Assembly: GCA_025936735.1 (NCBI GenBank)
Contig: JAICSU010000008.1
Coordinates: 1-35,791 of the forward strand
Length of the DNA stretch: 35,791 bases
DNA from: Amnibacterium sp.
Lineage (GTDB): Bacteria; Actinomycetota; Actinomycetes; Actinomycetales; Microbacteriaceae
Direction: 5' to 3'
A model generated the notes under the pieces. The model worked only from the letters and a program-made list of their open reading frames with translations, was not told the origin of the DNA and searched no databases. Made by a program: the position numbers and the translations under genes. Below are positions 1 through 17,457 of this stretch, piece after piece; the stretch's first letter is position 1, and each line of letters begins with the position of its first letter.

Positions 1-101
1 CGCCCGCGGGGCAGGATCGTCACCTTCGTGACGGGGTCCGTGTGGTTCAGCGCAGCAGCGACGAGGGCGTGGCCGCCCACGTGGTAGGCGGTGATGAGCT
101 T

Positions 102-1367
102 CTACTGGTCCTTCATCACCCGGCTGCGACGCTGGGGCCCCGCGATCACGCGGTCCACGGCCTCGTCGAGGGCGCGGTTGTCGATGAGCTGCGCGTTGCT
201 GCGCGCGGTGAGCAGCGCGGCCTCGTTCAGCACGTTCGCGAGGTCGGCGCCGGTGAAGCCGGGCGTCTTGCGGGCGAGCACCTCGAGGTCGACGCCGGCG
301 GCCAGCGGCTTGCCCTTCGCGTGCACCTCGAGGATGCGGCGGCGGCCGTTCAGGTCGGGGGCGTCGACGCCGATCTGGCGGTCGAAGCGGCCCGGCCGCA
401 GCAGCGCGGGGTCGAGGATGTCGGGGCGGTTGGTGGCCGCGATGAGGATGACGTTCGTCTTCACGTCGAAGCCGTCCATCTCGACGAGCAGCTGGTTCAG
501 CGTCTGCTCGCGCTCGTCGTGCCCGCCGCCGAGGCCGGCGCCGCGGTGGCGGCCGACCGCGTCGATCTCGTCGACGAAGATGATGGCCGGCGCGTTCTGC
601 TTCGCCTGGTCGAAGAGGTCGCGCACGCGGCTCGCGCCCACGCCGACGAACATCTCGACGAAGTCCGAGCCGGAGATCGAGTAGAACGGCACGCCCGCCT
701 CACCCGCGACGGCGCGGGCGAGCAGGGTCTTGCCGGTGCCGGGAGGGCCGTACAGCAGCACGCCCTTCGGGATGCGTGCCCCGACGGCCTGGAACTTCGC
801 CGGCTCCTTCAGGAAGTCCTTGATCTCGCCGAGCTCCTCGATGGCCTCGTCGGACCCGGCGACGTCGTTGAACGTGACCTTCGGGGTCTCCTTGGAGACG
901 AGCTTCGCGCGCGACTTGCCGAACTGCATGACGCGGTTCCCGCCGCCCTGCATGCCGGACATGATGAACCAGAAGAAGAGCCCGAGCAGCAGGATCGGCA
1001 CGAGGAAGGTCGCGACCGACAGCAGCCAGCTGGGCTGCGGGACCTCGTCGTTGAAGCCGTCGAGCTTGCCCCCCTTGTAGGCGGAGTCGACGGCCTTGAC
1101 GATCTCCGGGCCCCGGGGCGCCACGTAGTAGAACTGCACCTGCTTGCTGCCGGTCGAGTCCGGCTTGTGGAGCGTGAGGTCGACGCGCTGGTCCGTGTCG
1201 ACGATCTTGGCCTGCGAGACCTGACCGGAGCTCAGGTAATCGAGACCCTGCTCGGTCGTGATCTGGTGGAAGCCGGATCCCGTCAGCAGGCTCGAGCCGA
1301 CCCACACCACGATGACCGCGATCACGATATAGAGGAGCGGACCGCGGAAGATGCGCTTGAAGTCCAT
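102..1367 (-). pseudogene. ftsH: FtsH AAA+ domain; reading frame stops immediately before the M41 protease motif (window also truncates the gene)
   Basis: [15 protein letters not shown] start, Walker A GPPGTGKT, Walker [32 protein letters not shown]. Stop TAG at 102-104; the same frame continues as [33 protein letters not shown]. Confidence 0.85.
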
Positions 1368-2082: not shown

Positions 2083-3075
2083 TCACGCGGCCGTGAACTC
2101 GATCCGGCCGCCGGCGCGGACCACCCTAACGCCGGGCAGATCGAGCGGTCCCTGCCCGTGCCAGTCGGTCACGAGGCGGGCGACCTCGAGCGTCTGCGCG
2201 CGGGTGAGGGTCCGGCCGAACTCCTGCTCGACGGCGAGGCGGATGAGCCGCTGCGCGAGCGCGGGCGGGTTCGCGGCGAGCGCGGCGACCGGCAGGGCGA
2301 TCCCGCCGTCGGCGAGCTCCGCCAGCTCGGGCGCCTGCTCGGCGGCGAGGAGATCGAGCGCGGCGGCGTCCTCCTGCAGCTGGGCCGCGGTGCGGGCGAG
2401 CGCGAGCGGAACGCCGGGACCGAGGGCGGCCTCGAGCGCGGGCAGCGCGTCGAGCCGGACGCGCACGCGGGTGAACCGCCGATCGGCGTTGTGCGGATCG
2501 GCCCACGGCTCGGCACCCTGGTCGGCGCACGCCTGCACCGTCGTCGTCCGCCGGACGCCGAGCAGCGGCCGCACGAACGGGGGCGAGTCGGCGCGCATCC
2601 CGGCCACCGCATCCGGTCCCGATCCCCGGGCCAGCCCGAGCAGCACCGTCTCGGCCTGATCGTCGAGCGTGTGCGCGGTGAGGATGCGCGTCGCCCCCGT
2701 CGCGGAGAGGGCGCGTCGGAACGCCGCCCGCCGCGCGGTACGGGCCGCCGCTTCGGGGCCGCCCTCGTCGCCGACGGACACGGCCTCGACCCGCACCGGG
2801 TCCAGCCCGAGATGCCGGGCCGTGGCCGCAGCCCGCTCGGCGACGGCGGCCGATCCCGGCTGCAGGCCGTGGTCGACGACGACCGCGCCGATCCGGCGGC
2901 CGGCACGCGGCGCCTCGAACGCCACCGCGAGGGCGAGGGCGAGGGAGTCCGGACCGCCGGAGAGCCCGACGAGGGCCTCCGCTCCGGCCTCGCGCACCGG
3001 CACGGCCGGCAGCGCCTCGCGGACCGCCCGGCGGACGTCGGCGACCGCCGGCGTCAATCGGGGCCGATCGGGCAT
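2083..3075 (-). CDS. tilS: tRNA(Ile)-lysidine synthetase
   Basis: PP-loop LVGLSGGPDSLALALA, VDHGLQPGSA, TAHTLDDQAETVLLGLARGSG. Confidence 0.93.
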   Translation of the reverse strand: MPDRPRLTPAVADVRRAVREALPAVPVREAGAEALVGLSGGPDSLALALAVAFEAPRAGRRIGAVVVDHGLQPGSAAVAERAAATARHLGLDPVRVEAVSVGDEGGPEAAARTARRAAFRRALSATGATRILTAHTLDDQAETVLLGLARGSGPDAVAGMRADSPPFVRPLLGVRRTTTVQACADQGAEPWADPHNADRRFTRVRVRLDALPALEAALGPGVPLALARTAAQLQEDAAALDLLAAEQAPELAELADGGIALPVAALAANPPALAQRLIRLAVEQEFGRTLTRAQTLEVARLVTDWHGQGPLDLPGVRVVRAGGRIEFTAA

Positions 3076-3142
3076 CCGCTAACGTTAGGGCCGCCCGCGG
3101 CGGGGCCGGATCCGCCGCCGCTCACCTGCGTGGAGGACGACC

Positions 3143-3643
3143 GTGGCCGAGTACGACGTCATCATCGAGATCCCCAAGGGGAGCCGGAACAAGTACGAGG
3201 TCGACCACGTCACCGGCCGCGTCTACCTCGACCGCGTGCTGTTCACGGCGTTCGTCTACCCCGTCGACTACGGCTTCTTCGAGAACACCCTCGGGCTCGA
3301 CGGCGATCCGGTCGACGCGCTCGTGCTGCTCGAGTACCCCGTCTTCCCGGGCGTCGGGGTGAAGGTGCGTCCCGTCGCGGTGCTGAACATGAGCGACGAG
3401 GCGGGCTCGGACGCGAAGATCATCGCCGTCCCGCACAAGGACCCGCGCTGGCAGCACATCCAGGACATCGACGACGTGCCGGAGCAGACCCGCAAGGAGC
3501 TCGAGCACTTCTTCGCGCGCTACAAGGACCTCGAGCCCGGCAAGTTCGTGAACATCGAGGGCTGGGGCGGCGCGGCCGAGGCCGACCGGATCATCCAGGA
3601 CGGCTTCACCCGCCTCACCGACGCGGGCGCCGAGCACAGCTGA
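3143..3643 (+). CDS. ppa: Inorganic pyrophosphatase
   Basis: IEIPKGSRNKYEVDHVTGRVYLDRVLF, YPVDYGFFENTLGLDGDPVDALVL; GTG start. Confidence 0.96.
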   Translation: MAEYDVIIEIPKGSRNKYEVDHVTGRVYLDRVLFTAFVYPVDYGFFENTLGLDGDPVDALVLLEYPVFPGVGVKVRPVAVLNMSDEAGSDAKIIAVPHKDPRWQHIQDIDDVPEQTRKELEHFFARYKDLEPGKFVNIEGWGGAAEADRIIQDGFTRLTDAGAEHS

Positions 3644-3671
3644 GCCCGCAGGCGCGCCCCCCGGGAGCACC

Positions 3672-3736
3672 TCAGCAGGACGAATTCGCTTCAGCAGGAC
3701 GAATCGGCCGATTTCGTCCTGCTGACAGGAAACCGT
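3672..3736. repeat. Iterated/palindromic AGCAGGACGAA element between convergent ppa and NlpC genes
   Basis: CAGCAGGACGAAT at 3673 and 3692 in direct orientation; the second forms TCAGCAGGACGAA-TCGGCCGA-T-TTCGTCCTGCTGA (3691-3725); a partial CCGTCCTGC follows. Confidence 0.75.
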
Positions 3737-3764
3737 CCTGCCGACGTGCTGTCGCGGGTCGGCG

Positions 3765-5171
3765 TCAGGCCGTCGGGCGGGCCACGACCGGCATCCGGTC
3801 GGTGTCGCGGACCGGCACCTCGCGCACGGGCACCCCGTCGTAGGGGGCCTCGATCATGTCGCCGCCGCCCGAGTAGATGGCCACGTGGTACATGTCGCCG
3901 CCGCCGTCCGTGTAGAAGACGAGGTCACCGGGCTGGGCCTGCGAGTAGGGCACCAGCTGTCCCTGCGCGCTGGCCAGGTCGTACTGCGCCGTAGCGGAGT
4001 GGCCGCCGATGTCGATGCCGACCGACAGGTACGCCTTCCAGGTGAGGCCGGAGCAGTCCCAGGTGCTCGGTCCGGCGCCCGCGAACTGGTACATGTCGCC
4101 GATCTGGTCCCGGGCGAACGCCACGGCCGCGGCGGCCTCGGAGGTGTTGCCCGAGCCGACGGATCCGCTGGAGCCGCTCGAGGAGGACGAGCCACCGGAC
4201 GAGGATCCCCCCGAGGACGAGGATCCACCGGACGAGGAGGACCCGCCGGACGTCGACGACGACCCACCCGAGGACGACGACCCGCCGGACGAGGACGACC
4301 CGCCGGAGGACGAGGACGACCCGCCGGACGACGAGGACCCGCCGGAGGACGGGCCGGCGGAGTCGCCGCCGGACGAGTGCTCCGCCTGCGCGGCGGCGAC
4401 CTCGCGACGGTGCTGCACGCCCGCGACGTACGCCGCGGCGACCTGGGTGCTGGTGTGCTGGAGGTCGGCGAGCTGGGACAGGAGCCGGTTCACGTGCTGC
4501 TGCTGAGCGGTGACCGCGGACTCGGCCGCCGCCGAGGTGCGCTGCGCCGCGGCGAGGGCCGCGGCGGCGGCATCCGCGCGCTGCTGGAGCTCGGCCGCGG
4601 CGGCGTCCGCCTGCGCGCCGAGGGCCTTCGCCGTGTTCTCGTCGGCGACGGCGTCGTTGTAGATCTGCGCGGACTGCGCGGACAGCTGCGACATCGTCGC
4701 CAGCCGGTACAGCAGGTTGCTGGCGTCCGAGCCGTTCAGCAGCAGGTCGGTCGTCACGTCGCCGCCTGTCGTGCGGGCGAGATGGGCGGCGAGCAGGCCG
4801 GCCCGCATCCGAGACGTCCGGGCCCGCGCCGCGGCCGCGTCCGCCTCCGCAGCGAGGGCGTCGTGCTGCCGGCGCGCGGCGGCCTCGGCCGCCTGAGCGG
4901 TGTGCGCGTGCTCGGCGGCGATCTGCGCCTCGCGGCCGGCCGCATCCGCCTGGTCCTGGAGGGAGGTGATGAGGGCGGTGATCCTCGCCACCTCGGCCTT
5001 GGCCGCCGTCTCGCTGTGCGCCGCGTCCTGGACGTCCTGCCAGCTGGGGTAGGTCGGCTCGTCGGCGGAGGCCGGCGTGATGGTGAACGCCGCGGTCACC
5101 GCCCCGAGGGTGACGGCGCCGACGGCGATGCCGAGCGGCGCGGTGTGGTGCTTGCGCAGCGTCTCAACCAA
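3765..5171 (-). CDS. NlpC/P60 peptidoglycan endopeptidase with coiled-coil N-terminus and Ser/Gly linker
   Basis: STWDCSGLTWKAY, QPGDLVFYTDGGGDMYHVAIYSGGGDMIEAP; N-terminal secretion signal; TTG start. Confidence 0.9.
   Translation of the reverse strand: MVETLRKHHTAPLGIAVGAVTLGAVTAAFTITPASADEPTYPSWQDVQDAAHSETAAKAEVARITALITSLQDQADAAGREAQIAAEHAHTAQAAEAAARRQHDALAAEADAAAARARTSRMRAGLLAAHLARTTGGDVTTDLLLNGSDASNLLYRLATMSQLSAQSAQIYNDAVADENTAKALGAQADAAAAELQQRADAAAAALAAAQRTSAAAESAVTAQQQHVNRLLSQLADLQHTSTQVAAAYVAGVQHRREVAAAQAEHSSGGDSAGPSSGGSSSSGGSSSSSGGSSSSGGSSSSGGSSSTSGGSSSSGGSSSSGGSSSGGSSSSSGSSGSVGSGNTSEAAAAVAFARDQIGDMYQFAGAGPSTWDCSGLTWKAYLSVGIDIGGHSATAQYDLASAQGQLVPYSQAQPGDLVFYTDGGGDMYHVAIYSGGGDMIEAPYDGVPVREVPVRDTDRMPVVARPTA
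4160..4360 (-). repeat. Low-complexity GGSSS-type linker-coding repeat inside the NlpC/P60 gene
   Basis: Translation SSGGSSSSGGSSSSSGGSSSSGG...; periodic gacgag/gatccgcc DNA. Confidence 0.85.
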
Positions 5172-6396
5172 TGGTGATCCCCCGGGCCGCCATGAACGGC
5201 ACGGCGTCGACGGCGACCTCGTTCAGCCGCACCTCGAAGTGGAGGTGGCAGCCGGTCGCGGCGCCCGTCATGCCCACGGAGGCGATGTTCTGACCGGCGG
5301 ACACCTGCTGGCCGACGTGCACGAAGGTGCCGCCCGGACGGATGTGGGCGTAGCCCGTCGAGACGCTGCCGCCGTTGTCGATCTCGATGAAGTTGCCGTA
5401 GGTGCCGAGCCAGCCCGCGTAGATCACGGTTCCGGAATGGGCGGCGTAGATGGAGCTGCCGCAGCCCGCCCCGATGTCGGTGCCGCGGTGGAACGGGTTC
5501 GCTCCGGCAGGACGGTCGGGGCGGTAGCCGAAGCCGTCGGTGATGGGACCGTACGCGGGCAGCGCCCAGCCGGAGGAGCCGACCGATCCGCCGGCACCTC
5601 CGCCGCCCGCAGCGGCTGCCGCCGCCGCGGCCTTCGCTGCGGCGGCAGCACGAAGGCCGTCCTGGTATCCGGCGGCCGTCGCATCCGACTTCGCCTGGAG
5701 CGCCTTCAGCTGCGCCGCCAGCGTGGCCTGGATGCCCTGCTCCTTCTGGAGCTCGGCGTTCGCGGCGTCGTTCGCCTTGACGGCCGCGGCGAGCGCGGAT
5801 GCGGCCTTCTGCTTCAGCGCGACGAGCGCGTCGGTCGCCTCCTTCAGCTGCGCCTGCGTCGCGGCCGCGGTGCGCTGCGCCTGCTTCGCGGCGGCGGCGA
5901 TCGCGCCGTTCGACTGGGTGAGCTTGCTGAGCCGGCCCAGCTTGGTGAGGAACGAGGACGCGCTCCGGTCCGACGAGCCCGCGGAGAAGAACAGCGTCGT
6001 CTCGAGGTCGGCGCCGCCGGTGCGGCTCAGCTGCGCGGCGAGCAGGCCGGCCCGCTGCGAGGCCGCCTTCGCCCGCTTCTGGTCGGCGGCGACCTCCTGC
6101 TTCACGGCCGCGAGCCGGTCGTTCGCCGCGTCGACCTGGTTGCGCGCGGCCTCGTAGTCCGCCCCGCGCTGCTCCGCGACCTGCTGCGTCCGCTCGACGA
6201 CGGCCTTGCTCGCGGCGAGCAGCCCCTCGATGCGCTTGACCTGGGCGGCCTTCGCTGCGGCGCTGTGCCGCGCGGCCTGCACGTCGCTCCAGGAGGGGTA
6301 GTTCGTGGCGCTCGCGGGCAGCGCGATGCCGGCGACCGCGGCCGTCGTGAGCACGACGGACAGCGCGAGCACGCGAGTCCTGACCCGCATCCGCAT
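5164..6396 (-). CDS. M23-family metallopeptidase with coiled-coil N-terminus
   Basis: HRGTDIGAGCGSSIYAAHSGTVIYAGW, GYAHI, GCHLHFEVRLN; start at MRMRVRTRVLALS. Confidence 0.9.
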   Translation of the reverse strand: MRMRVRTRVLALSVVLTTAAVAGIALPASATNYPSWSDVQAARHSAAAKAAQVKRIEGLLAASKAVVERTQQVAEQRGADYEAARNQVDAANDRLAAVKQEVAADQKRAKAASQRAGLLAAQLSRTGGADLETTLFFSAGSSDRSASSFLTKLGRLSKLTQSNGAIAAAAKQAQRTAAATQAQLKEATDALVALKQKAASALAAAVKANDAANAELQKEQGIQATLAAQLKALQAKSDATAAGYQDGLRAAAAAKAAAAAAAAGGGGAGGSVGSSGWALPAYGPITDGFGYRPDRPAGANPFHRGTDIGAGCGSSIYAAHSGTVIYAGWLGTYGNFIEIDNGGSVSTGYAHIRPGGTFVHVGQQVSAGQNIASVGMTGAATGCHLHFEVRLNEVAVDAVPFMAARGITIG

Positions 6397-6588
6397 GTCG
6401 AACCCCCGATCGACGCACCGGCGGGTCGAGCCGCCTCGGAATGCAGCCGCCACCGTAACCCGGGGGCGGCCGGATCCCGTGTACCCAGTCCGGGTGTGTC
6501 GCGGCGCGCCCGCGGATCCGCGTGCGTTTGGGAAACGGCGCCGGGCACCGTACACTTGACGGTCGGTGAGCCCGGTTCCGGGAGGCCC

Positions 6589-6661
6589 GGCCCCATCGTT
6601 TAGCGGCCTAGGACGTCGCCCTTTCACGGCGATAACACGGGTTCGAATCCCGTTGGGGTCA
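6589..6661 (+). tRNA. tRNA-Glu(TTC)
   Basis: Cloverleaf: acceptor GGCCCCA/TGGGGTC, anticodon loop CTTTCAC, T-loop GGGTTCGAATCCC. Confidence 0.95.
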
Positions 6662-6699
6662 CAGCCGCGGACAAGAGTTCACCGAAAAGCAAGTTGTTT

Positions 6700-6773
6700 G
6701 GCCCTGTAGCGCAGTTGGTTAGCGTGCCGCCCTGTCACGGCGGAGGTCGCGGGTTCAAGTCCCGTCAGGGTCG
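6700..6773 (+). tRNA. tRNA-Asp(GTC)
   Basis: Acceptor GGCCCTG/CAGGGTC, anticodon loop CTGTCAC, T-arm GCGGGTTCAAGTCCCGT. Confidence 0.95.
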
Positions 6774-6803
6774 CGAGGCGGATCGTGCAAGCGATCCGCT
6801 TTC

Positions 6804-6876
6804 GGCTCTGTAGCTCAGTTGGTAGAGCGTTCGACTGAAAATCGAAAGGTCACCGGATCGACGCCGGTCGGAGCCA
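6804..6876 (+). tRNA. tRNA-Phe(GAA)
   Basis: Acceptor GGCTCTG/CGGAGCC, anticodon loop CTGAAAA, T-arm ACCGG-ATCGACG-CCGGT. Confidence 0.95.
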
Positions 6877-6877
6877 C
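6834..6877 (+). repeat. attL core, 44-bp direct repeat within the tRNA-Phe 3' half
   Basis: ACTGAAAATCGAAAGGTCACCGGATCGACGCCGGTCGGAGCCAC identical to 17604-17647. Confidence 0.95.
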
Positions 6878-8052
6878 TACTGAAACCCCTGGTCATCCGG
6901 GGGTTTTTCCTTTTCCGGCGGCACACCGCCCGGCTCTTCGAGGGGCCGTGCCCACATTTTGCCCACACCTGCAGCAGCCGCGTGGTCATCGAGCGCGGCT
7001 GCGACGCCGTCGAGGTCATCGTCGAAGAGGTCCGTGTAGACGTCGAGCGTCATGGCTGCCGACGCGTGGCCGAGCATCCGCTGGACCGCTTTGACGTTGG
7101 CGCCGGCGGCGATGGCAAGGCTCGCGGCCGTGTGGCGGAGGTCGTGCGGCGTGATACGGGGAAAATCGGGATCCTCGGCTCGGACGCGGGCAAGCGCCGG
7201 GTCGAACCAGCGATATCGGAAGTTGCTGCTCCGCAGGACGCCGCCATCCGCCCCGGCGAACACCAGATCGCCCGGTGCCTTTCCGGCGCAGCGTGCGCGG
7301 AGCAGCTCGCTCAGCAGCACGGGGTACGGCACCGAGCGACGCTCGTGGGTCTTCGGCGTCCCGAAGATCAGCGCTCCTCGCGGTTCGGTCACGGCTTCGG
7401 CCACCTCGAGTCGCCGGCGCCGGAGGTCGACTCGGCCTACTCGCAATGCCGCCATCTCGCCCCACCGAAGGCCGGTGTAGGCGAGGAACGCGATGACGTC
7501 CCCGTAGGGGCCGTGCTCGGCGGCGAGCCGCTCGACCTGCTGGTCATCGAGGTAGCCGTGGCGACGCTTGAGGATTCGTGGCAGGCGGACGTCGTCGCAC
7601 GGATTGCGGCTCAGGCGGCCGTCTCGAACGGCGAACTTCATCACCCCGAACAGCACGAGGTGGATCTGGCGCACTGTCGAGGGCGCGAGTTTGGCGGAGA
7701 GGCCGTTCACCCAGGTCTGGACATCGGAATGCCTCACCTCCGGCAGCCGGACGGCCGACCACCGCGGAAGCACGTGCTTGTCGAGCGAGTGACGGTACCC
7801 CGACCGCGTCGTGGGCTTCACCTGGAGCTGCGCCGCGTACCACTGCTCGGCCCACTCGCCCACGGTCACCCGGGATCGCGCCGGGTTGACCCAGTCGCCG
7901 CGGAGCTTGGCGACTTCGATTCCGGCGAGGAAGTCCTCCGCTTCGCGTTTGGTGCGGAACCCGCGTTTGTCGGTTTGGCGATGGTCCGGCGTCCGGTAGC
8001 GGACCCGCCAGCGGCGACCGGCTGTCGTGGAGTAATTCGAGACCGTGCCCAC
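6877..8052 (-). CDS. int: Site-specific tyrosine recombinase (integrase)
   Basis: TGLRWGEMAALR, ITPHDLRHTAASLAIAAGANVKAVQRMLGHASAAMTLDVYTDLF (R/HxxR/H/Y signature); ends at the att core. Confidence 0.95.
   Translation of the reverse strand: MGTVSNYSTTAGRRWRVRYRTPDHRQTDKRGFRTKREAEDFLAGIEVAKLRGDWVNPARSRVTVGEWAEQWYAAQLQVKPTTRSGYRHSLDKHVLPRWSAVRLPEVRHSDVQTWVNGLSAKLAPSTVRQIHLVLFGVMKFAVRDGRLSRNPCDDVRLPRILKRRHGYLDDQQVERLAAEHGPYGDVIAFLAYTGLRWGEMAALRVGRVDLRRRRLEVAEAVTEPRGALIFGTPKTHERRSVPYPVLLSELLRARCAGKAPGDLVFAGADGGVLRSSNFRYRWFDPALARVRAEDPDFPRITPHDLRHTAASLAIAAGANVKAVQRMLGHASAAMTLDVYTDLFDDDLDGVAAALDDHAAAAGVGKMWARPLEEPGGVPPEKEKPPDDQGFQ
6883..6908 (+). terminator. Intrinsic terminator of tRNA-Phe, inside the integrase 3' coding end
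   Basis: AAACCCCTGG-TCAT-CCGGGGGTTT then TT; 10-bp stem with one G.T wobble. Confidence 0.75.
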
Positions 8053-8549: not shown

Positions 8550-8969
8550 TCATGATGCTGATGTAGGCCCGGTGATGATCTGGCAGATGCCGTCACTCGT
8601 GCAATCGGTCGGGTTCATCCGCGCGCTCGCTTCGATCAGCCGCTCGAGCTCGACCTCGAGCCCCGCGAGCTGTTGCCGGTGTGCACGCACATCCGCGAGC
8701 TTGTCCACGAGGAGTTGGGTGACGTGACCGCACGGTCGCTGGTCGGCGTCGCGTAGTTCGAGGATGCTGCCGATCTCGGCGAGGGTCAGCCCGCGGGTCT
8801 GCGCCGACTGGATGAAACCGAGCCGGTCGACCGCGTCGTCGTCGTAGTACCGGTAGCCGTTCCCGAGGCGGTCGATGGGCTGCAGCAGGCCGAGGCGTTC
8901 GTAGAACCGGATGGTCTGCGGGGATACGCCGGCGACTTCGGCGAGGGTTCCGATCAGCACGGCGCCCAT
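8550..8969 (-). CDS. MerR-family metal-type transcriptional regulator
   Basis: IGTLAEVAGVSPQTIRFYERLGLLQPIDRLGNGYRYYDDDAV; Cys at RPCGHV and DCTSDGIC. Confidence 0.92.
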   Translation of the reverse strand: MGAVLIGTLAEVAGVSPQTIRFYERLGLLQPIDRLGNGYRYYDDDAVDRLGFIQSAQTRGLTLAEIGSILELRDADQRPCGHVTQLLVDKLADVRAHRQQLAGLEVELERLIEASARMNPTDCTSDGICQIITGPTSAS

Positions 8970-8977
8970 CTCAGCAC

Positions 8978-9009
8978 TTGACCCTGCACCTCGCTGCAAG
9001 GTCTACGGT
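8978..9009 (+). promoter_or_regulatory. MerR-type long-spacer promoter with operator dyad
   Basis: TTGACC (8978-8983), ~20-nt spacer, TACGGT (9004-9009); dyad ACCCTGCA-CCTCGC-TGCAAGGT at 8981-9002. Confidence 0.65.
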
Positions 9010-9052
9010 CCACGGACTGCTCCGGGACCGGAGCCTGAGAGGAGATCCCATC

Positions 9053-10405
9053 GTGCCTGACTCGCTGGATCTGTTGGTGATCGGCGCAGGGATGGCCGGC
9101 ACGGTCGCGGCGAACAAGGCGGGCGCCAAGGGCTGGCGGGTCGCCATCGTTGACGCGCTTCCGTATGGCGGAACGTGCGCGTTGCGGGGCTGTGATCCGA
9201 AGAAGATCCTCCGTCGCGGCGCCGAGGTCGTCGAGGCGGCTCGGCTGATGCAGGGCAAGGGCATCGACCCCGGGACGCTGCACGTCGATTGGCGTGACCT
9301 CATGGCGCACAAGCGCGGCTTCACCGACGGCATCCCGCAGAGTATGGAGCGTGAGCTGCAGGGCAACCACGTCGCCTGCCTGCATGGCGAGGCCCGGTTC
9401 ACGGGGCCTCGCCAGGTCGAGGTCGACGGCATCGGATACGAGACCGAGCACGTACTCATCGCGACCGGCGCGCGACCTCGCCCGCTCGGCTTCCCAGGCA
9501 GCGAGCATCTCGTCGACAGCACACAGTTCCTGGAGCTCGAGTCCCTCCCGCAGCGGATCGTGTTCGTCGGAGGCGGCTACATCGCGTTCGAGTTCGCGCA
9601 CATCGCCGCCCACGCGGGCGCGCACTGCGTGATCGTCGACCGCGGCGAGCGACCCCTGCGCCAGTTCGACCCCGACCTCGTCGAACTCCTGGTCGACCGC
9701 ACTCGGCGTGACGGCATCAACGTACGGCGAGGGACCGAGGTGGCGGGAGTCGAGCGCGTCGGCTCCGAGTACCGGGTGACCCTGAACCGAGATGGGGAGC
9801 GTTCAGTGCTCACCGCCGATCTGGTCGTCCACGCCGCGGGCCGGGAGCCGGACCTGGAGCGCCTGCGCCTCGACGCCGCCGACATCGCTGCCGGGCCGGA
9901 CGGGGTGCAGGTCTCCCAGCACCTGCAGAGCACCACCAACCCGGCCGTCTACGCCGCCGGCGACGCCGCCCAGACACCAGCCGCGCGACTCACGCCGGTC
10001 GCGGTGATCGAGGGGAAGGTCGCCGCCTCGAACATGCTCAAAGGCACCCGAACCGTCCCCGACTACACCGGTGTACCCAGCACGGTGTTCACCCTTCCCG
10101 AGCTCAATCGCGTCGGACTGCTCGAGCACGAGGCTCGGGACCGTGGCATCGACATCGACGTCCGCTACACCGACACCCGCGGCTGGTACTCCAACTACCG
10201 GATCGGCGAGACGACCGGAGCCGCGAAGATCCTCGTCGGTCGACGTACCGATCTGGTCGTCGGCGCACACCTGCTCGGGCACCACTACTCGGAACTCATC
10301 AACACCTTCGGGCTCGCTATCAAAGTCGGCCTTACGACAGCCCAACTGCGATCCGCCGTCGCCACCTACCCCTCGATCGGATCCGACCTCAGTTCACTCC
10401 TCTGA
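9053..10405 (+). CDS. FAD-dependent pyridine nucleotide-disulfide oxidoreductase (MerA-like, without HMA domain or C-terminal Cys pair)
   Basis: VIGAGMAGTVAANKAG, GGTCALRGCDPKK (CxxxxC), VFVGGGYIAFEFA, AAGDAA; GTG start with GAGGAG upstream. Confidence 0.9.
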   Translation: MPDSLDLLVIGAGMAGTVAANKAGAKGWRVAIVDALPYGGTCALRGCDPKKILRRGAEVVEAARLMQGKGIDPGTLHVDWRDLMAHKRGFTDGIPQSMERELQGNHVACLHGEARFTGPRQVEVDGIGYETEHVLIATGARPRPLGFPGSEHLVDSTQFLELESLPQRIVFVGGGYIAFEFAHIAAHAGAHCVIVDRGERPLRQFDPDLVELLVDRTRRDGINVRRGTEVAGVERVGSEYRVTLNRDGERSVLTADLVVHAAGREPDLERLRLDAADIAAGPDGVQVSQHLQSTTNPAVYAAGDAAQTPAARLTPVAVIEGKVAASNMLKGTRTVPDYTGVPSTVFTLPELNRVGLLEHEARDRGIDIDVRYTDTRGWYSNYRIGETTGAAKILVGRRTDLVVGAHLLGHHYSELINTFGLAIKVGLTTAQLRSAVATYPSIGSDLSSLL

Positions 10406-10429
10406 CACCAGCCGCTCGATCACATAAAC

Positions 10430-10568
10430 CGCACTTTCCGCCACTCCCCCGCTTCTGTTTTCTCTACCGTCTCCCGCCCCCATCACTTCGAGTTCTACTA
10501 CCACCGTTTCCCCGCACGCTTTCCGCTCTTCTTTTCATTTCCTCCCATTCCACAGCACTTCTTCTTGT
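10430..10568 (+). other. C-rich/G-poor pyrimidine tract (candidate Rho-utilisation region)
   Basis: 10441-10560: hand count 55 C, 11 G, about 79% pyrimidine; no supported CDS. Confidence 0.6.
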
Positions 10569-10686
10569 CCTGTCCTGGCCTGCCTCCTGCACTTCCGAAC
10601 CACCCACTGCACAGCATCTTTTGCGCTGTGCTGCGGGTGGTTCGGAAGCAGCGCCAGCTGAGGAGGCAGGCCAGGACAGGGCAAGA
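10563..10686. repeat. 124-nt long hairpin / inverted repeat
   Basis: 10563-10588 pairs 10661-10686 (26 bp, one G.T); 10592-10605 pairs 10635-10648 (14 bp); 10609-10615 pairs 10625-10631 (7 bp); 9-nt loop. Confidence 0.92.
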
Positions 10687-10706
10687 CGCTGGAAACCCGT
10701 CGCTGA

Positions 10707-10729
10707 CCCCATCGTCCTCAACGACGGGG
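10707..10729. terminator. Secondary hairpin CCCCATCGT-CCTCA-ACGACGGGG
   Basis: 8 of 9 positions paired, 5-nt loop, between convergent genes. Confidence 0.45.
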
Positions 10730-10795
10730 CAAACGACGGCGGTAACGACCGGTCTTGCCGGCGCCCCACACCAACTGACGACGACGTTCGTGTCG

Positions 10796-11308
10796 CTAAG
10801 GCTCGACGACGGGACTGCGACGTTCGACGAGGAGGGTGTCCCGGAATCGTCCGAGGTAGGGCCCGTAGGTCATTCTGGCGATGCGCTCTCTGGTTCCGAC
10901 GAGTCGAAATCCAGCCACTTCGTGCAAGGCGAGGGTTGCCTCGTTCTCGGGAAAGATCGACGACTGGATCGTCCAGATCCCCGCCGCCTCGCTCGAGCGC
11001 ACCAGTTCATCGAGCAGACAGCGGCCGACGCCGACTCGTCTCGCACGGGCCGCGACGTAGACGGAGTGCTCGACGACCCCGCGATAGACGGCCCTGCTCG
11101 AGGTGGGCGAGACCGCGATCCAGCCGATCACCGCCCCTGATTCGTCCACCGCCACGAATCGGTGGTCGGGGAGCTTGCCCCGATCGAAGTCCTCCCACGA
11201 CGGCGGCTTCGCCTCGAACGTCGCGTTACCGGTGGCGATGCCCTCGGCGTAGATCTCCCGCACGGACGACCAGTCCTCAGCCGTCAGAGAACGAACCGTG
11301 ACCGCCAT
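10796..11308 (-). CDS. arsN1: GNAT N-acetyltransferase, ArsN1/phosphinothricin acetyltransferase-like
   Basis: IREIYAEGIATGNATFE-type start, YRGVVEHSVYVAARARRVGVGRCLLDELV; 1 nt from the ArsO-like gene. Confidence 0.82.
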   Translation of the reverse strand: MAVTVRSLTAEDWSSVREIYAEGIATGNATFEAKPPSWEDFDRGKLPDHRFVAVDESGAVIGWIAVSPTSSRAVYRGVVEHSVYVAARARRVGVGRCLLDELVRSSEAAGIWTIQSSIFPENEATLALHEVAGFRLVGTRERIARMTYGPYLGRFRDTLLVERRSPVVEP

Positions 11309-11309
11309 C

Positions 11310-12692
11310 TCAGCAGCCGCCGCCTCGACTCGGAGCGACGGTCAGGAGCTGGAGCGGCCGACGAGTGGGAGCGGACGTCGACGCGGTGCTGCAGCAGGCG
11401 CTGCCCTCGCCGCCCGAGCAGACGCCGGTCTCCGGCAGCGTCAGCTGCACGCGTCGTGCGGCATCGTGGTCGCCCGCGAGCTCGTCGGCGATGGAGCGGA
11501 TCTGCTCGTAGCCGGTGAGCAGCAGGAAGGTCGGTGCTCGTCCGTAGCTCTTCATCCCGGCCACGAAGAAGTTCGGCTCCGGCTGGGCGAGTTCCGCGAC
11601 GCCGTGGGGCGGGACGGTGCCGCAGCTGTGCAGGTTCGGGTCGATGAGCGGCGCCAGCGCACGGGGCGCCTCGACGATGTCGTCGAGTGCCAGGCGGATC
11701 TCACGGAGCATGTCGAGGTCGGGCTTGAAGCCGGTGGCGCCGACGATCACGTCGGTCTCGATCGATACCGGTTCCCCGGCGCGTCGGCCGTCGACCCGGA
11801 CCGCGTCGCCATCCAGCTCGAGGCGGTCGACCTCGAAGGAGTCGAGCAGCTCGATCCGACCGTAGGCAACATGGGAGGCGACGCGGTCGCCGAGGGCTGC
11901 CCGGTCCTGGAGCTCGTCGTCGGCGCCGGTGTAGACGCGCTTGGGGCTGGCGTTGCGGATGCCCCACACGACCGTCGTGCCGGGCTCCTGCCGGGCGAGA
12001 TCGGCGAGGGCGATGAGGGTGTTGGCGGCGGAGTGGCCGGCGCCGAGCACGAGGGTGCGTTTGCCGGCGAAGCGCGCACGGTCGCGTCCGAGAACGTCGG
12101 GGAGGGCGTGGCTGAGGTGCGGCCGGAGCGCGTCGAGGTCGACGGGATCTAGGCCGGAGGCGAGAAGGCCGTTGGGGTTCCGATAGGTGCCGGAGGTGTC
12201 GATGACAGCACGGGCGAGCTCCTCCCGCACCTGCCCGTTCTGCTCGACGCGAAGAACGAACGGCGCGGCGGCCCGTCCGGTCGACCGAGTGCGGTCCATG
12301 CCCTGCCTGCTGACGGCGGAGACGTTGGACGCGTAGCGGATATGTGGGGCGAGCAGCGGCGTCGCGGCCAGCGGCTCGAGGTAGTCGGTGACCAAGTCGC
12401 GACCATAGGGCAGCGACTCCGGGTCGGGGCTGGACCACCCCTGGGCAGTCAGGAGCTCGCGGGCGGCCTCATCGGTCACGTAGCGCCACGGCGAGAAGAG
12501 CCGCGTGTGACCCCACAGGGCGATGGCGAACCCGGCGGAATCGCCGGCTTCGAAGACGACGAACGGCAGCCCCCGCCGGGTCAGGTGGGCCGCGGCCGCG
12601 AGCCCCACCGGGCCGGCGCCGATGATCGCGACCGGCAGCCCGGCAAGGCGGTCCTGTGCCGCCTCCGCTGGTGCGGACAGAGTGAGCGTCAT
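11310..12692 (-). CDS. ArsO-like FAD/NAD(P)-binding flavoprotein with Cys-rich C-terminus
   Basis: VAIIGAGPVGLAAAAHL, VLGAGHSAANTL, GATGFKPDL; tail CSGGEGSACC. Confidence 0.82.
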   Translation of the reverse strand: MTLTLSAPAEAAQDRLAGLPVAIIGAGPVGLAAAAHLTRRGLPFVVFEAGDSAGFAIALWGHTRLFSPWRYVTDEAARELLTAQGWSSPDPESLPYGRDLVTDYLEPLAATPLLAPHIRYASNVSAVSRQGMDRTRSTGRAAAPFVLRVEQNGQVREELARAVIDTSGTYRNPNGLLASGLDPVDLDALRPHLSHALPDVLGRDRARFAGKRTLVLGAGHSAANTLIALADLARQEPGTTVVWGIRNASPKRVYTGADDELQDRAALGDRVASHVAYGRIELLDSFEVDRLELDGDAVRVDGRRAGEPVSIETDVIVGATGFKPDLDMLREIRLALDDIVEAPRALAPLIDPNLHSCGTVPPHGVAELAQPEPNFFVAGMKSYGRAPTFLLLTGYEQIRSIADELAGDHDAARRVQLTLPETGVCSGGEGSACCSTASTSAPTRRPLQLLTVAPSRGGGC

Positions 12693-12713
12693 GGGTTCTC
12701 CTTCAGGGCTGAG

Positions 12714-12768
12714 CAATCATCGATCGCTATCGATAGATGCACCATACATCGATCAGTGTCGATCTATG
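12714..12768. promoter_or_regulatory. Two tandem ArsR-type operator dyads in the divergent promoter
   Basis: CATACATCGA-N6-TCGATCTATG (12743-12768, 9/10) and CAATCATCGA-N6-TCGATAGATG (12714-12739, 7/10). Confidence 0.65.
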
Positions 12769-12781
12769 CAACACTTGCGGG

Positions 12782-13129
12782 GTGACACCAGTCCTCGAGA
12801 TCACGACGAGCACGGAAGCGGCCTGCTGCACGCCGGACGCCGAGGGCATGGCCCCCGGTGCGGCGACGGATCTTGCCCGCACCTTGAAGGCGCTGGCGGA
12901 CCCGGCACGGCTGCGCCTCCTCTCCATCGTTGCGGCATCCGAGGGACAGGAGGCGTGCGTCTGCGACCTCACGAATCCGGTCGGGCTGTCTCAGGCCACG
13001 GTGTCGTACCACCTGAAGATGCTCACCGACGCGGGGTTCCTCACCCGGAGCAAGCGCGGCACCTGGGCCTACTACCGCCTCGTCCCGGAGGCGCTGGACG
13101 CGGCGGGGGCCGCGGTCTCGGCGCTCTGA
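12782..13129 (+). CDS. arsR: ArsR-family metalloregulator
   Basis: LARTLKALADPARLRLLSIVA, ACVCDLTNPVGLSQATVSYHLKMLTDAGFLTRSKRGTWAYY. Confidence 0.92.
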   Translation: MTPVLEITTSTEAACCTPDAEGMAPGAATDLARTLKALADPARLRLLSIVAASEGQEACVCDLTNPVGLSQATVSYHLKMLTDAGFLTRSKRGTWAYYRLVPEALDAAGAAVSAL

Positions 13130-13185
13130 CCAAACACGCACGCCCTACCCTGCCGATGACCGTCCCGACCGAACGAAGGAGCACC

Positions 13186-13593
13186 GTGGCGAAGCCGACC
13201 GTCCTGTTCGTCTGCATCCACAACGCCGGCCGATCGCAGATGGCGGCGGGCTACCTGCGGGCCCTCGCCGGCGATCGCGTCGAGGTGCTCTCGGGGGGCA
13301 GTGAGCCGACGGGTCAGATCAACCCGGTCGCGGTCCAGGTGATGGCCGAGGACGGCATCGACATCACCGGCGAGGCGCCGAAGGTGCTGACCACGGAGGC
13401 GGTCAAGGAGTCCGACGTCGTGATCACGATGGGCTGCGGGGACGCCTGCCCGATCTTCCCCGGGAAGCGGTACGAGGACTGGGAGCTCACGGATCCCGCG
13501 GGCCGTCCCGTCGACGAGGTGCGGCCCATCCGCGACGACATCAAGGCGCGGGTCGCCGCACTCCTCGAGGAGCTCGTCCCCGCTTCGCAGTAA
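13186..13593 (+). CDS. arsC: LMW-PTP-type arsenate reductase
   Basis: VLFVCIHNAGRSQMAAGYL, ITMGCGDACPIFPGKRYEDWELTDPAG. Confidence 0.92.
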   Translation: MAKPTVLFVCIHNAGRSQMAAGYLRALAGDRVEVLSGGSEPTGQINPVAVQVMAEDGIDITGEAPKVLTTEAVKESDVVITMGCGDACPIFPGKRYEDWELTDPAGRPVDEVRPIRDDIKARVAALLEELVPASQ

Positions 13594-13794
13594 GCAGCGC
13601 GCGGTTCAACGATTGCAGTGTGCAGCGCCGTCTCTCAACCCTCGCAGGCCGTCGCCGCGCCGTCCATCGCCTAGCGCGTGGACGTGGGCGCACTACTCGT
13701 CAGAAGGCTCATCAGGGCGGACGTGGCCCTGTCCGAGCCAGAAGTGTAGGTTCGCGATTCCCGAAGGCTCCACGGCCGCCGAGCGAGGTGAGTC

Positions 13795-16035
13795 ATGTCG
13801 AATGCGCCGCCGTACGTCGTTCGGCTCGCGGATGCCGCGGCGATGACCCCGACCACCGCGGGGGTGAAGGCAGCCACCCTTGCGACCCTCTCAGCCGCGG
13901 GCTTCCCCGTTCCGCCGGGTCTCGTCGTGACGTCGACGTCGTGGACGCACGCGGACGCGGCGAGGGCCGAGTTGGAGCGCCTCCTCGCTCACGAGGACTT
14001 CTCTGGTGTCGCGCGGTTCGCGGTGCGGTCCTCGGCGGTCTCCGAAGACCTTCCTGGGGCTTCATTCGCCGGGCAGTACGAGACGTTCCTCGATGTGCCG
14101 AAGTCCGAGGTCCCCGACGCGGTGACCCGATGCGCCGATGCTGCCCGGTCGGACCGCGTCGCGTCATACCGGGCCGCCCGCGACGAGTCACCATCCGGGC
14201 GGGAGGGGATCGCCGTGCTCGTTCAGCCGATGGTGCCTGCGCTCGCGGCGGGCGTCGCCTTCACAGCGAACCCGACCACCGGTGATCGGGCAGAAACCGT
14301 CATCACTGCCGTTCGCGGCCTGGGCGAGCGGCTCGTGAGCGGCGAAGCGGTGGGCGACGAGTGGATTGTGCGTGCGCGTCACGCGACAGCGTCGCGGGCG
14401 GCGGAGCAGGCGATCACCAGCGCGAACGCGCGGGCCGTTGCGGCCCTCGGACGCCGGGTCCAGGACCTCCTTGGCGACCCTCAAGACATCGAGTGGGCTC
14501 TCGACGGCGCCGGTGAGGTGGTACTGCTGCAGGCGCGCCCGATGACTGCCCTGCCGGCGGTCGTCGAGTGGGCGCCCCCGGGGCCCGGCCTGTGGCTCCG
14601 CAACTTCCGTCTGGGCGAGTGGCTGCCCGATCCCATGACGCCCCTGTTCGCCGACTGGCTCCTCCCAACGATCGAGAACGGGTACCTCGAGGGGATGCGC
14701 TCCTCCACAGGAACGGTCGTGCCGTTCCGCTACGCGACCGTGAACGGCTGGTACTTCAACGCCGTCCCCATCCCCTCGGCTCGCCTCCTGCTCGGAGCGG
14801 TTAGGGAGAGTCGAGGCAAGGTCCTCCCGGTACTGTTCAACGCGCTGATCCGCGTCAGCAGGGATCCGGCCGCTGCGGATCGAGCCGTGCTCGGCCGCCT
14901 CTACAGCCAGTGGCTGGACGTCGAGCTGCCCGCCTACCGACGGCTGGTCGAGCAAGGCGGGCGCCTGATCACAACAGGGACGAACCGGGAACTCGCCGAG
15001 ATCATCCACCGCGTGGGGGCGGCCGCCGGGCGGCAGCTGTGGTACCTCGCCATCGTCGGAGGGTCGGCGTGGAAGATGGAAGCCCGACTCACGGGCTTCG
15101 CGGACAAGCACCTCGACCCTCTGCGAAATGACGGCCCGTTGCGCGACGGCGTCCAGGTCCTGCTCCGCCAGACCGACCGCCCCGCCGGAATGGCGGCGCA
15201 CGCCGTCCTCAGCATCGACTGGTTCTGGCCCACCTCGGAGGAAATGCGGGGCGGCGACGGCAGCCTGGACGAGCAGCGCCGCCGCACGATGCAGGCGGAA
15301 CGCGCCGCCGCGGAAGAGTCCTGCCTGCAGGCGTTGAGTTCGAAGCCTCGACTTCGGCGCGAGTTCGTCGAGCTTCTCGAGGTCGCACGCCGATATGCCG
15401 GGATTCGCGAGGACCAGGCCCGCGCGCTCACCCTCGGCTGGCCCCTGCTTCGCGCCGGCGTTCTGAAGCTGGGCGAGCACCTAGTCGAGGCGGGGGTGGT
15501 CAGGGATTCGCGGGACGTCTTCTTCTTGAAGCGGGACGAGCTCGACAGCCACACTGCGCTCGAGGGCCTCGCAGCCGAGCGCGAATCCGAGTGGCAAGCT
15601 CAACGCCGCCTCCGTGCACCGCTGACTCTGGGACGGCCGCCGCGGTTGATCGGCGACCCGATCCAGCGAGCCGCCGACCGCGCACGTGGCGGCAGAGCGC
15701 TGCCCCCAGGCGCGATCATCGGGCAACCCGTGAGCGCCGGTCGCGCGACGGGTCCGGTCCGTCTGGTTACGGACCCCGACCAGTTCGACGCCTTCCTCCC
15801 CGGCGAGGTCCTCCTCGCCCGCGCCACGGCGCCGGCCTGGACACCCCTCTTCGCACGAGCGGCAGCAGTTGTCACCGACGGAGGAACAGTCGCCGCCCAT
15901 GCGTCGATCGTCGCTCGCGAATACGGCATTCCCGCCGTCGTCGGAACGGGCGATGCGACCCTCCGGCTCACCACGGGCCAGTGGGTCACCGTCGACGGGA
16001 ACGCCGGAACAGTCCTGCCGATCCAGAGGCCCTGA
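13795..16035 (+). CDS. Rifampin phosphotransferase-like PEP/pyruvate-binding and PEP-utilising domain protein
   Basis: ATP-grasp FAVRSSAVSEDLPGASFAGQYETFLDV; phosphohistidine domain TDGGTVAAHASIVAREYGIPAVVGTGDAT. Confidence 0.78.
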   Translation: MSNAPPYVVRLADAAAMTPTTAGVKAATLATLSAAGFPVPPGLVVTSTSWTHADAARAELERLLAHEDFSGVARFAVRSSAVSEDLPGASFAGQYETFLDVPKSEVPDAVTRCADAARSDRVASYRAARDESPSGREGIAVLVQPMVPALAAGVAFTANPTTGDRAETVITAVRGLGERLVSGEAVGDEWIVRARHATASRAAEQAITSANARAVAALGRRVQDLLGDPQDIEWALDGAGEVVLLQARPMTALPAVVEWAPPGPGLWLRNFRLGEWLPDPMTPLFADWLLPTIENGYLEGMRSSTGTVVPFRYATVNGWYFNAVPIPSARLLLGAVRESRGKVLPVLFNALIRVSRDPAAADRAVLGRLYSQWLDVELPAYRRLVEQGGRLITTGTNRELAEIIHRVGAAAGRQLWYLAIVGGSAWKMEARLTGFADKHLDPLRNDGPLRDGVQVLLRQTDRPAGMAAHAVLSIDWFWPTSEEMRGGDGSLDEQRRRTMQAERAAAEESCLQALSSKPRLRREFVELLEVARRYAGIREDQARALTLGWPLLRAGVLKLGEHLVEAGVVRDSRDVFFLKRDELDSHTALEGLAAERESEWQAQRRLRAPLTLGRPPRLIGDPIQRAADRARGGRALPPGAIIGQPVSAGRATGPVRLVTDPDQFDAFLPGEVLLARATAPAWTPLFARAAAVVTDGGTVAAHASIVAREYGIPAVVGTGDATLRLTTGQWVTVDGNAGTVLPIQRP

Positions 16036-16059
16036 CTCGCCGCCTGGGGACGCGGCAGC

Positions 16060-17457
16060 TGTCATGTATCAGGACATCGGTGACGCTTCTGCATCAATAG
16101 ATCGGTGACACTTCGGGCCGGTTTGGTGGTGACACTTCGCCTCGATGTTTGAGGCATGGCGCACCCTGAACCGGTTGATCCTCGTGTCCGTCTCGCGATC
16201 ACGCAGTGGCCGCCGGACTCCCCTCGGGGCGCGGTGAGCACGTTCTGCCTCGAGCAGGGCATCTCCCGACAGGCCTTCTACGCGATCCGCCGACGGGCGA
16301 TCGAGGAGGGCCAGGCCGCGGCGCTTCAGCCGCGGACCCGCCGGCCCCGGTCGAGCCCGAACCGCATCGCCGACGAGGTGAAGCAGCAGGCGCTCGGCGT
16401 CCGGTCCGCCCTGGAGTCCTCGGGGCTGGACCATGGACCGATCAGCGTCCACGAGAAGATGCGCTCCCTCGGCCTGGAGCCGGTGCCGTCGACGGCGGCG
16501 CTGTCACGCATCTTCCGCGACGCCGGCGTCGCCCGCACCGAGCCGCGGAAGAAACCGCGGGCGTCCTACCGCCGGTTCGTCTATCCGGCGCCGAACGCCT
16601 GCTGGCAGCTGGACGCGACCGAATACGTGCTCATCGGCGGCCGGACCTGCGTGATCTTCCAGCTCATCGACGACCACTCCCGCCTCGCCGTCGCCTCCCA
16701 CGTCGCCTCCGGGGAGACCGCGGAGGGCGCGATCACGGTGGTGAAGAAAGCGATCGCCGCCCACGGAGTCCCGCAGCGGCTACTCAGCGATAACGGGGTC
16801 GCGTTGAACCCGTCCCGCCGCGGTGTCATCGGGCAGCTGGTCGCCTATGTCACCGCGCTCGGGGTCGAGGCGATCACCGGGAAGCCCTACAAGCCGACCA
16901 CGCAGGGCAAGAACGAGCGGTTCCACCAGACCCTGTTCCGCTGGCTCGACAAGCAGCCCCTGGCCGAGACCCTCGGCCAGTTGCAGGAGCAGGTCGATGC
17001 GTTCGACCGGATCTACAACACTGAGCGGCCCCACCAGGCCCTGCCTGGCCGGATCACACCGCTGCAGGCCTGGCAGGCGACACCGAAAGCCGACCCGCCC
17101 CGGCCCCGCGGGGAGCTGCTCCGGCCGGTCGGCTGGGACGGGATCCGCATCACCCGCGTCGCCGCCAACGGCATCGTCCAGGTCCGCTCGACCCGCTTCC
17201 ACATCACCCGCCTGATGGCCGGCCAGACCGTCCTGCTGATCGAGACCGAGGACCACCTGCTCGTCTTCGACGACCGCGGCACCGAGATCATGCGCCACTC
17301 CTGGCCCAAGCCCGGCACCGCCTACGTCAGCTCCGGCCGCCCCCGCGGACGACACCCACGAACCCTCTGACCGAGCGAACTGTCACCGATGTCCTGATGC
17401 CGGAAGTGTCACCGATGTCCTGATGCAGAACCGTCACCCATGTCCTGATACATCACA
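16060..17457 (+). mobile_element. IS481-family insertion sequence, 1398 bp
   Basis: Ends TGTCATGTATCAGGACATCGGTGACGCTTCTGCATCA and, inverted, TGTGATGTATCAGGACATGGGTGACGGTTCTGCATCA; 15-bp TSD TGGGGACGCGGCAGC at 16045-16059 and 17458-17472. Confidence 0.93.
16156..17370 (+). CDS. tnp: IS481-family DDE transposase
   Basis: WQLDATEYVL, LLSDNGVALN, KPTTQGKNERFHQTLFRWL, YNTERPHQAL. Confidence 0.93.
   Translation: MAHPEPVDPRVRLAITQWPPDSPRGAVSTFCLEQGISRQAFYAIRRRAIEEGQAAALQPRTRRPRSSPNRIADEVKQQALGVRSALESSGLDHGPISVHEKMRSLGLEPVPSTAALSRIFRDAGVARTEPRKKPRASYRRFVYPAPNACWQLDATEYVLIGGRTCVIFQLIDDHSRLAVASHVASGETAEGAITVVKKAIAAHGVPQRLLSDNGVALNPSRRGVIGQLVAYVTALGVEAITGKPYKPTTQGKNERFHQTLFRWLDKQPLAETLGQLQEQVDAFDRIYNTERPHQALPGRITPLQAWQATPKADPPRPRGELLRPVGWDGIRITRVAANGIVQVRSTRFHITRLMAGQTVLLIETEDHLLVFDDRGTEIMRHSWPKPGTAYVSSGRPRGRHPRTL

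Follow-up and report, generated by a model that had tools for sequence, protein, structure and literature searches.

An apparent stop codon and a lost catalytic glutamate in a Microbacteriaceae ftsH gene are almost certainly errors at a contig tip

Bacterial FtsH is a housekeeping AAA+ membrane zinc protease. It is recognised by the family model TIGR01241, by the Pfam domains FtsH_ext, AAA, AAA_lid_3 and Peptidase_M41 in that order, and by its place in MEROPS family M41. A departure from this pattern can be found in the plant FtsHi pseudo-proteases. In these proteins the HExxH motif is mutated or missing, and they are presumed to be inactive in proteolysis (PMC8197885).

The stretch of DNA analysed here (the window), 35,791 bases long, makes up the entire contig C168. 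An ftsH gene on its minus strand runs off the first base. An earlier note described a premature stop and a change of the catalytic Glu to Val in this gene, and offered two explanations, a protease-dead FtsH and errors of assembly. The features concerned are the following.

1 to 1367, minus strand: ftsH, first 455 codons, with its ATG at 1367; identified by TIGR01241, Pfam and continuity in sister genomes; cut at base 1 and continued on contig C73
1 to 101, minus strand: stretch shared with the start of C73, 99 of 101 bases identical
54 to 56, minus strand: Ala codon with a silent difference from C73 (position 54), the third of three differences spaced 25 nt apart
78 to 80, minus strand: Val codon GTG where HExxH has its catalytic Glu; Glu in C73, from the same genome
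102 to 104, minus strand: TAG codon; Glu in 27 of 28 relatives and Asp in one; outside the part covered by C73
1507 to 2070, minus strand: hpt, a phosphoribosyltransferase gene (Pfam Pribosyltran), an ordinary neighbour of ftsH
2083 to 3075, minus strand: tilS, tRNA(Ile)-lysidine synthetase (Pfam ATP_bind_3 and TilS), also an ordinary neighbour

Judged by its sequence, the locus belongs to the ordinary bacterial FtsH family. The N-terminal membrane/extracellular region and the AAA+ domain with its lid are both present. TIGR01241 matches with 658 bits against a cut-off of 600, and FtsH_ext, AAA and AAA_lid_3 all exceed their Pfam cut-offs and lie intact before the TAG, in agreement with the earlier description of the AAA+ domain. 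The gene order is tilS-hpt-ftsH-DUF3180. Over 1,367 bases, DNA identity is 82-88% to most ftsH genes of the same genus and to several of the same family. The locus shares domain order, gene neighbours and, on the overlapping contig, the motif HEGGH with bacterial FtsH, and differs from it in nothing but the contig break and three differences at the tip.

Several other genes were noticed in the window. Two adjacent minus-strand genes at 3765-6627 encode probable secreted cell-wall hydrolases, one an NlpC/P60 protein with a long Ser/Gly-rich linker and the other an M23 peptidase. The region 6589-8052 holds three plus-strand tRNA genes (Glu, Asp and Phe) and, on the minus strand at 6877-8052, a gene for a phage-type tyrosine integrase that directly adjoins the end of tRNA-Phe at 6877; this arrangement resembles the edge of an integrated element. 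Beside the integrase, 8550-17370 encodes a MerR regulator, a pyridine nucleotide-disulphide oxidoreductase, a second FAD oxidoreductase, an ArsR regulator, a low-molecular-weight phosphatase-like protein of the arsenate reductase type, an rve transposase, and a PPDK_N/PEP-utiliser protein of either the rifampin phosphotransferase or the PEP synthase type. This group is likely to be metal- or arsenic-response cargo.

The letters at the tip are as the earlier note gave them. Re-read on the minus strand, they are GTG ATG AAG GAC CAG TAG AAG CTC ATC ACC GCC TAC CAC GTG GGC GGC CAC GCC, with an in-frame TAG at 104-102 and a Val codon at 80-78 that gives HVGGH where the catalytic Glu of HExxH is expected. 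The FtsH frame is otherwise open, from the ATG to the TAG and from the TAG past the motif to the window edge. The TAG and the Val codon each differ from a Glu codon by one base.

The remainder of the gene is found on C73. This contig begins directly after the TAG codon, so that the 101-base overlap does not include it. The two mismatches within the overlap are the catalytic codon, which is Glu in C73 (HEGGH), and the silent Ala codon. From there the rest of ftsH continues for 249 codons with no stop and a normal end. It contains a full Peptidase_M41 domain (234.8 bits, Pfam), with HEGGH at the start of C73 as the HExxH of that domain. The next genes on the 3' side are DUF3180 and a bacterial PH-domain gene.

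Sister genomes show the two contigs as parts of one gene. In G006, both contigs match a single locus, C168 at 335-2864 and C73 at 2764-4362; this locus is a continuous ftsH with the same 101-base overlap. The same continuity is seen in G001, G003 and G002, and for the ftsH part in G005. The nearest sister, G004, cannot arbitrate because the 3' part of the ordinary ftsH is absent from its assembly. Its gene is also cut by a contig end (left end of C172, L024:1-120), matches the query only to base 902 of 1367, and has 12 first bases that do not match.

A second FtsH, which the earlier note had suggested looking for, is present in the genome. It is a complete but divergent protein of 627 aa with an intact HEAGH, encoded on the minus strand at C155:8362-10242 (L010:463-2343). 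A 92% identical counterpart occurs in G004. No counterpart was found in the five other same-genus genomes searched, where the best match was the ordinary ftsH at about 50%. From these comparisons the C155 protein appears to be a lineage-specific extra FtsH. C73 is not a copy of this second gene: the C155 gene has about 70% DNA identity, against 99/101 for C73 in the overlap, and C73 has the DUF3180 neighbour seen in the sister ftsH loci.

Neither change occurs in the relatives examined. In an alignment of 28 relatives, the closest from the same genus and the most distant from the same order, every sequence has the catalytic Glu and none has the stop. Public genomes of Microbacteriaceae and neighbouring groups supplied a further 70 loci, some from genomes that are also among the 28, and these have Glu at both positions and no stop; ten additional public loci gave no match to the motif pattern, some owing to a short contig. 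The alignment has 512 columns in which at least 95% of the 28 relatives agree. The window differs from them at only two, positions 104 and 79, which puts both differences well beyond chance, and both codons lie in the 104 bases next to the contig end. Decay of the whole gene was ruled out, since it would be expected to leave departures at other conserved columns as well. Reassignment of the stop codon was set aside on inspection, as there is a single in-frame TAG, at a contig tip, in a codon that is Glu (once Asp) in relatives.

The draft genome from which the window comes is fragmented. It is a Microbacteriaceae assembly with 322 contigs and 2.94 Mb in total, has 84% completeness and 1.4% contamination, and looks like a metagenome bin. 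Graph assemblers often leave overlapping ends between contigs, and neighbouring contigs of this assembly do overlap in this way. The other end of the window shares 141 bases with the end of C62, all identical. When 80 contig ends were compared with each other, one further overlap was found, 129 exact bases between C3 and C39; 80 ends are too few to judge whether errors spaced 25 nt apart recur. Unlike these two, the C168/C73 overlap at ftsH is inexact, which is unusual and again points to the tip of C168.

The differences themselves are regularly placed. Counting the silent one, they fall at 104, 79 and 54, exactly 25 nt apart, and each is an A on the plus strand. With one difference fixed at 104 and two placed randomly in the tip, equal gaps arise by chance in about 1% of trials. 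Since the spacing was spotted after the fact, it lends only modest support to a technical origin.

Together, these observations make it almost certain that an ordinary ftsH has been split over two contigs, and that three wrong bases in the C168 tip give rise to both the TAG and the Glu-to-Val change that appear in the window. The 104 bases at this end of C168 would then be unreliable; the assembler probably built them from a small number of reads, from faulty ones, or by taking a wrong path through the graph, and the cause of the errors is presumably technical. A search of the literature for errors at contig ends turned up no paper. The two codons are judged on different evidence. For the catalytic codon there is a second sequence from the same genome, that of C73, and it has Glu at this place. 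The TAG is judged to be wrong too, from relatives, position and spacing: it stands in the same tip and the same register, 25 bases from the contradicted base, at a codon where all the relatives examined have Glu or Asp. Of the two possibilities in the earlier note, it is thus the assembly error that agrees with the overlapping contig, the contig end, the third difference in register and the sister genomes.

Alternatively, the three differences may be an allele of a minor strain. The population would then include a strain with a broken ftsH, which the C168 tip followed while C73 followed the major strain. Contigs often break at strain differences, the draft resembles a metagenome bin, and the intact FtsH on C155 could make the loss tolerable. 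This explanation has to account for differences that are evenly spaced and all A on the plus strand, and for 510 other conserved columns that are undisturbed. A decaying gene would not be expected to collect two changed Glu codons of a conserved motif and a silent change in a stretch of 51 bases and nothing in the rest of its length, and a minor strain is very unlikely to be the source. Even less probable is a real subpopulation whose ftsH is truncated before the protease domain, giving an ATPase-only FtsH beside the intact one on C155.

It is barely credible that this bacterium really produces a truncated or protease-dead FtsH comparable to plant FtsHi. The raw letters of the window suggest it, the plant proteins show that an FtsH without a working HExxH can matter (PMC8197885), and the C155 protein with its HEAGH supplies a second FtsH. 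In FtsHi, however, the motif is altered in the gene itself and the frame is open, whereas here C73 gives HEGGH for this locus in the same genome, with an open M41 domain, and the raw window has a stop before the motif. That TAG lies outside the part covered by C73, on which the remainder is open. If fixed, it would cost the protein its protease domain with or without the Val, so that the two changes do not add up to an FtsHi-like protein.

For genome annotation, a stop or a lost catalytic residue that lies no more than roughly one read length from a contig end needs to be checked against overlapping contigs before a pseudogene or an inactive enzyme is called. In this organism, the actual ftsH gene should encode a normal, active FtsH.
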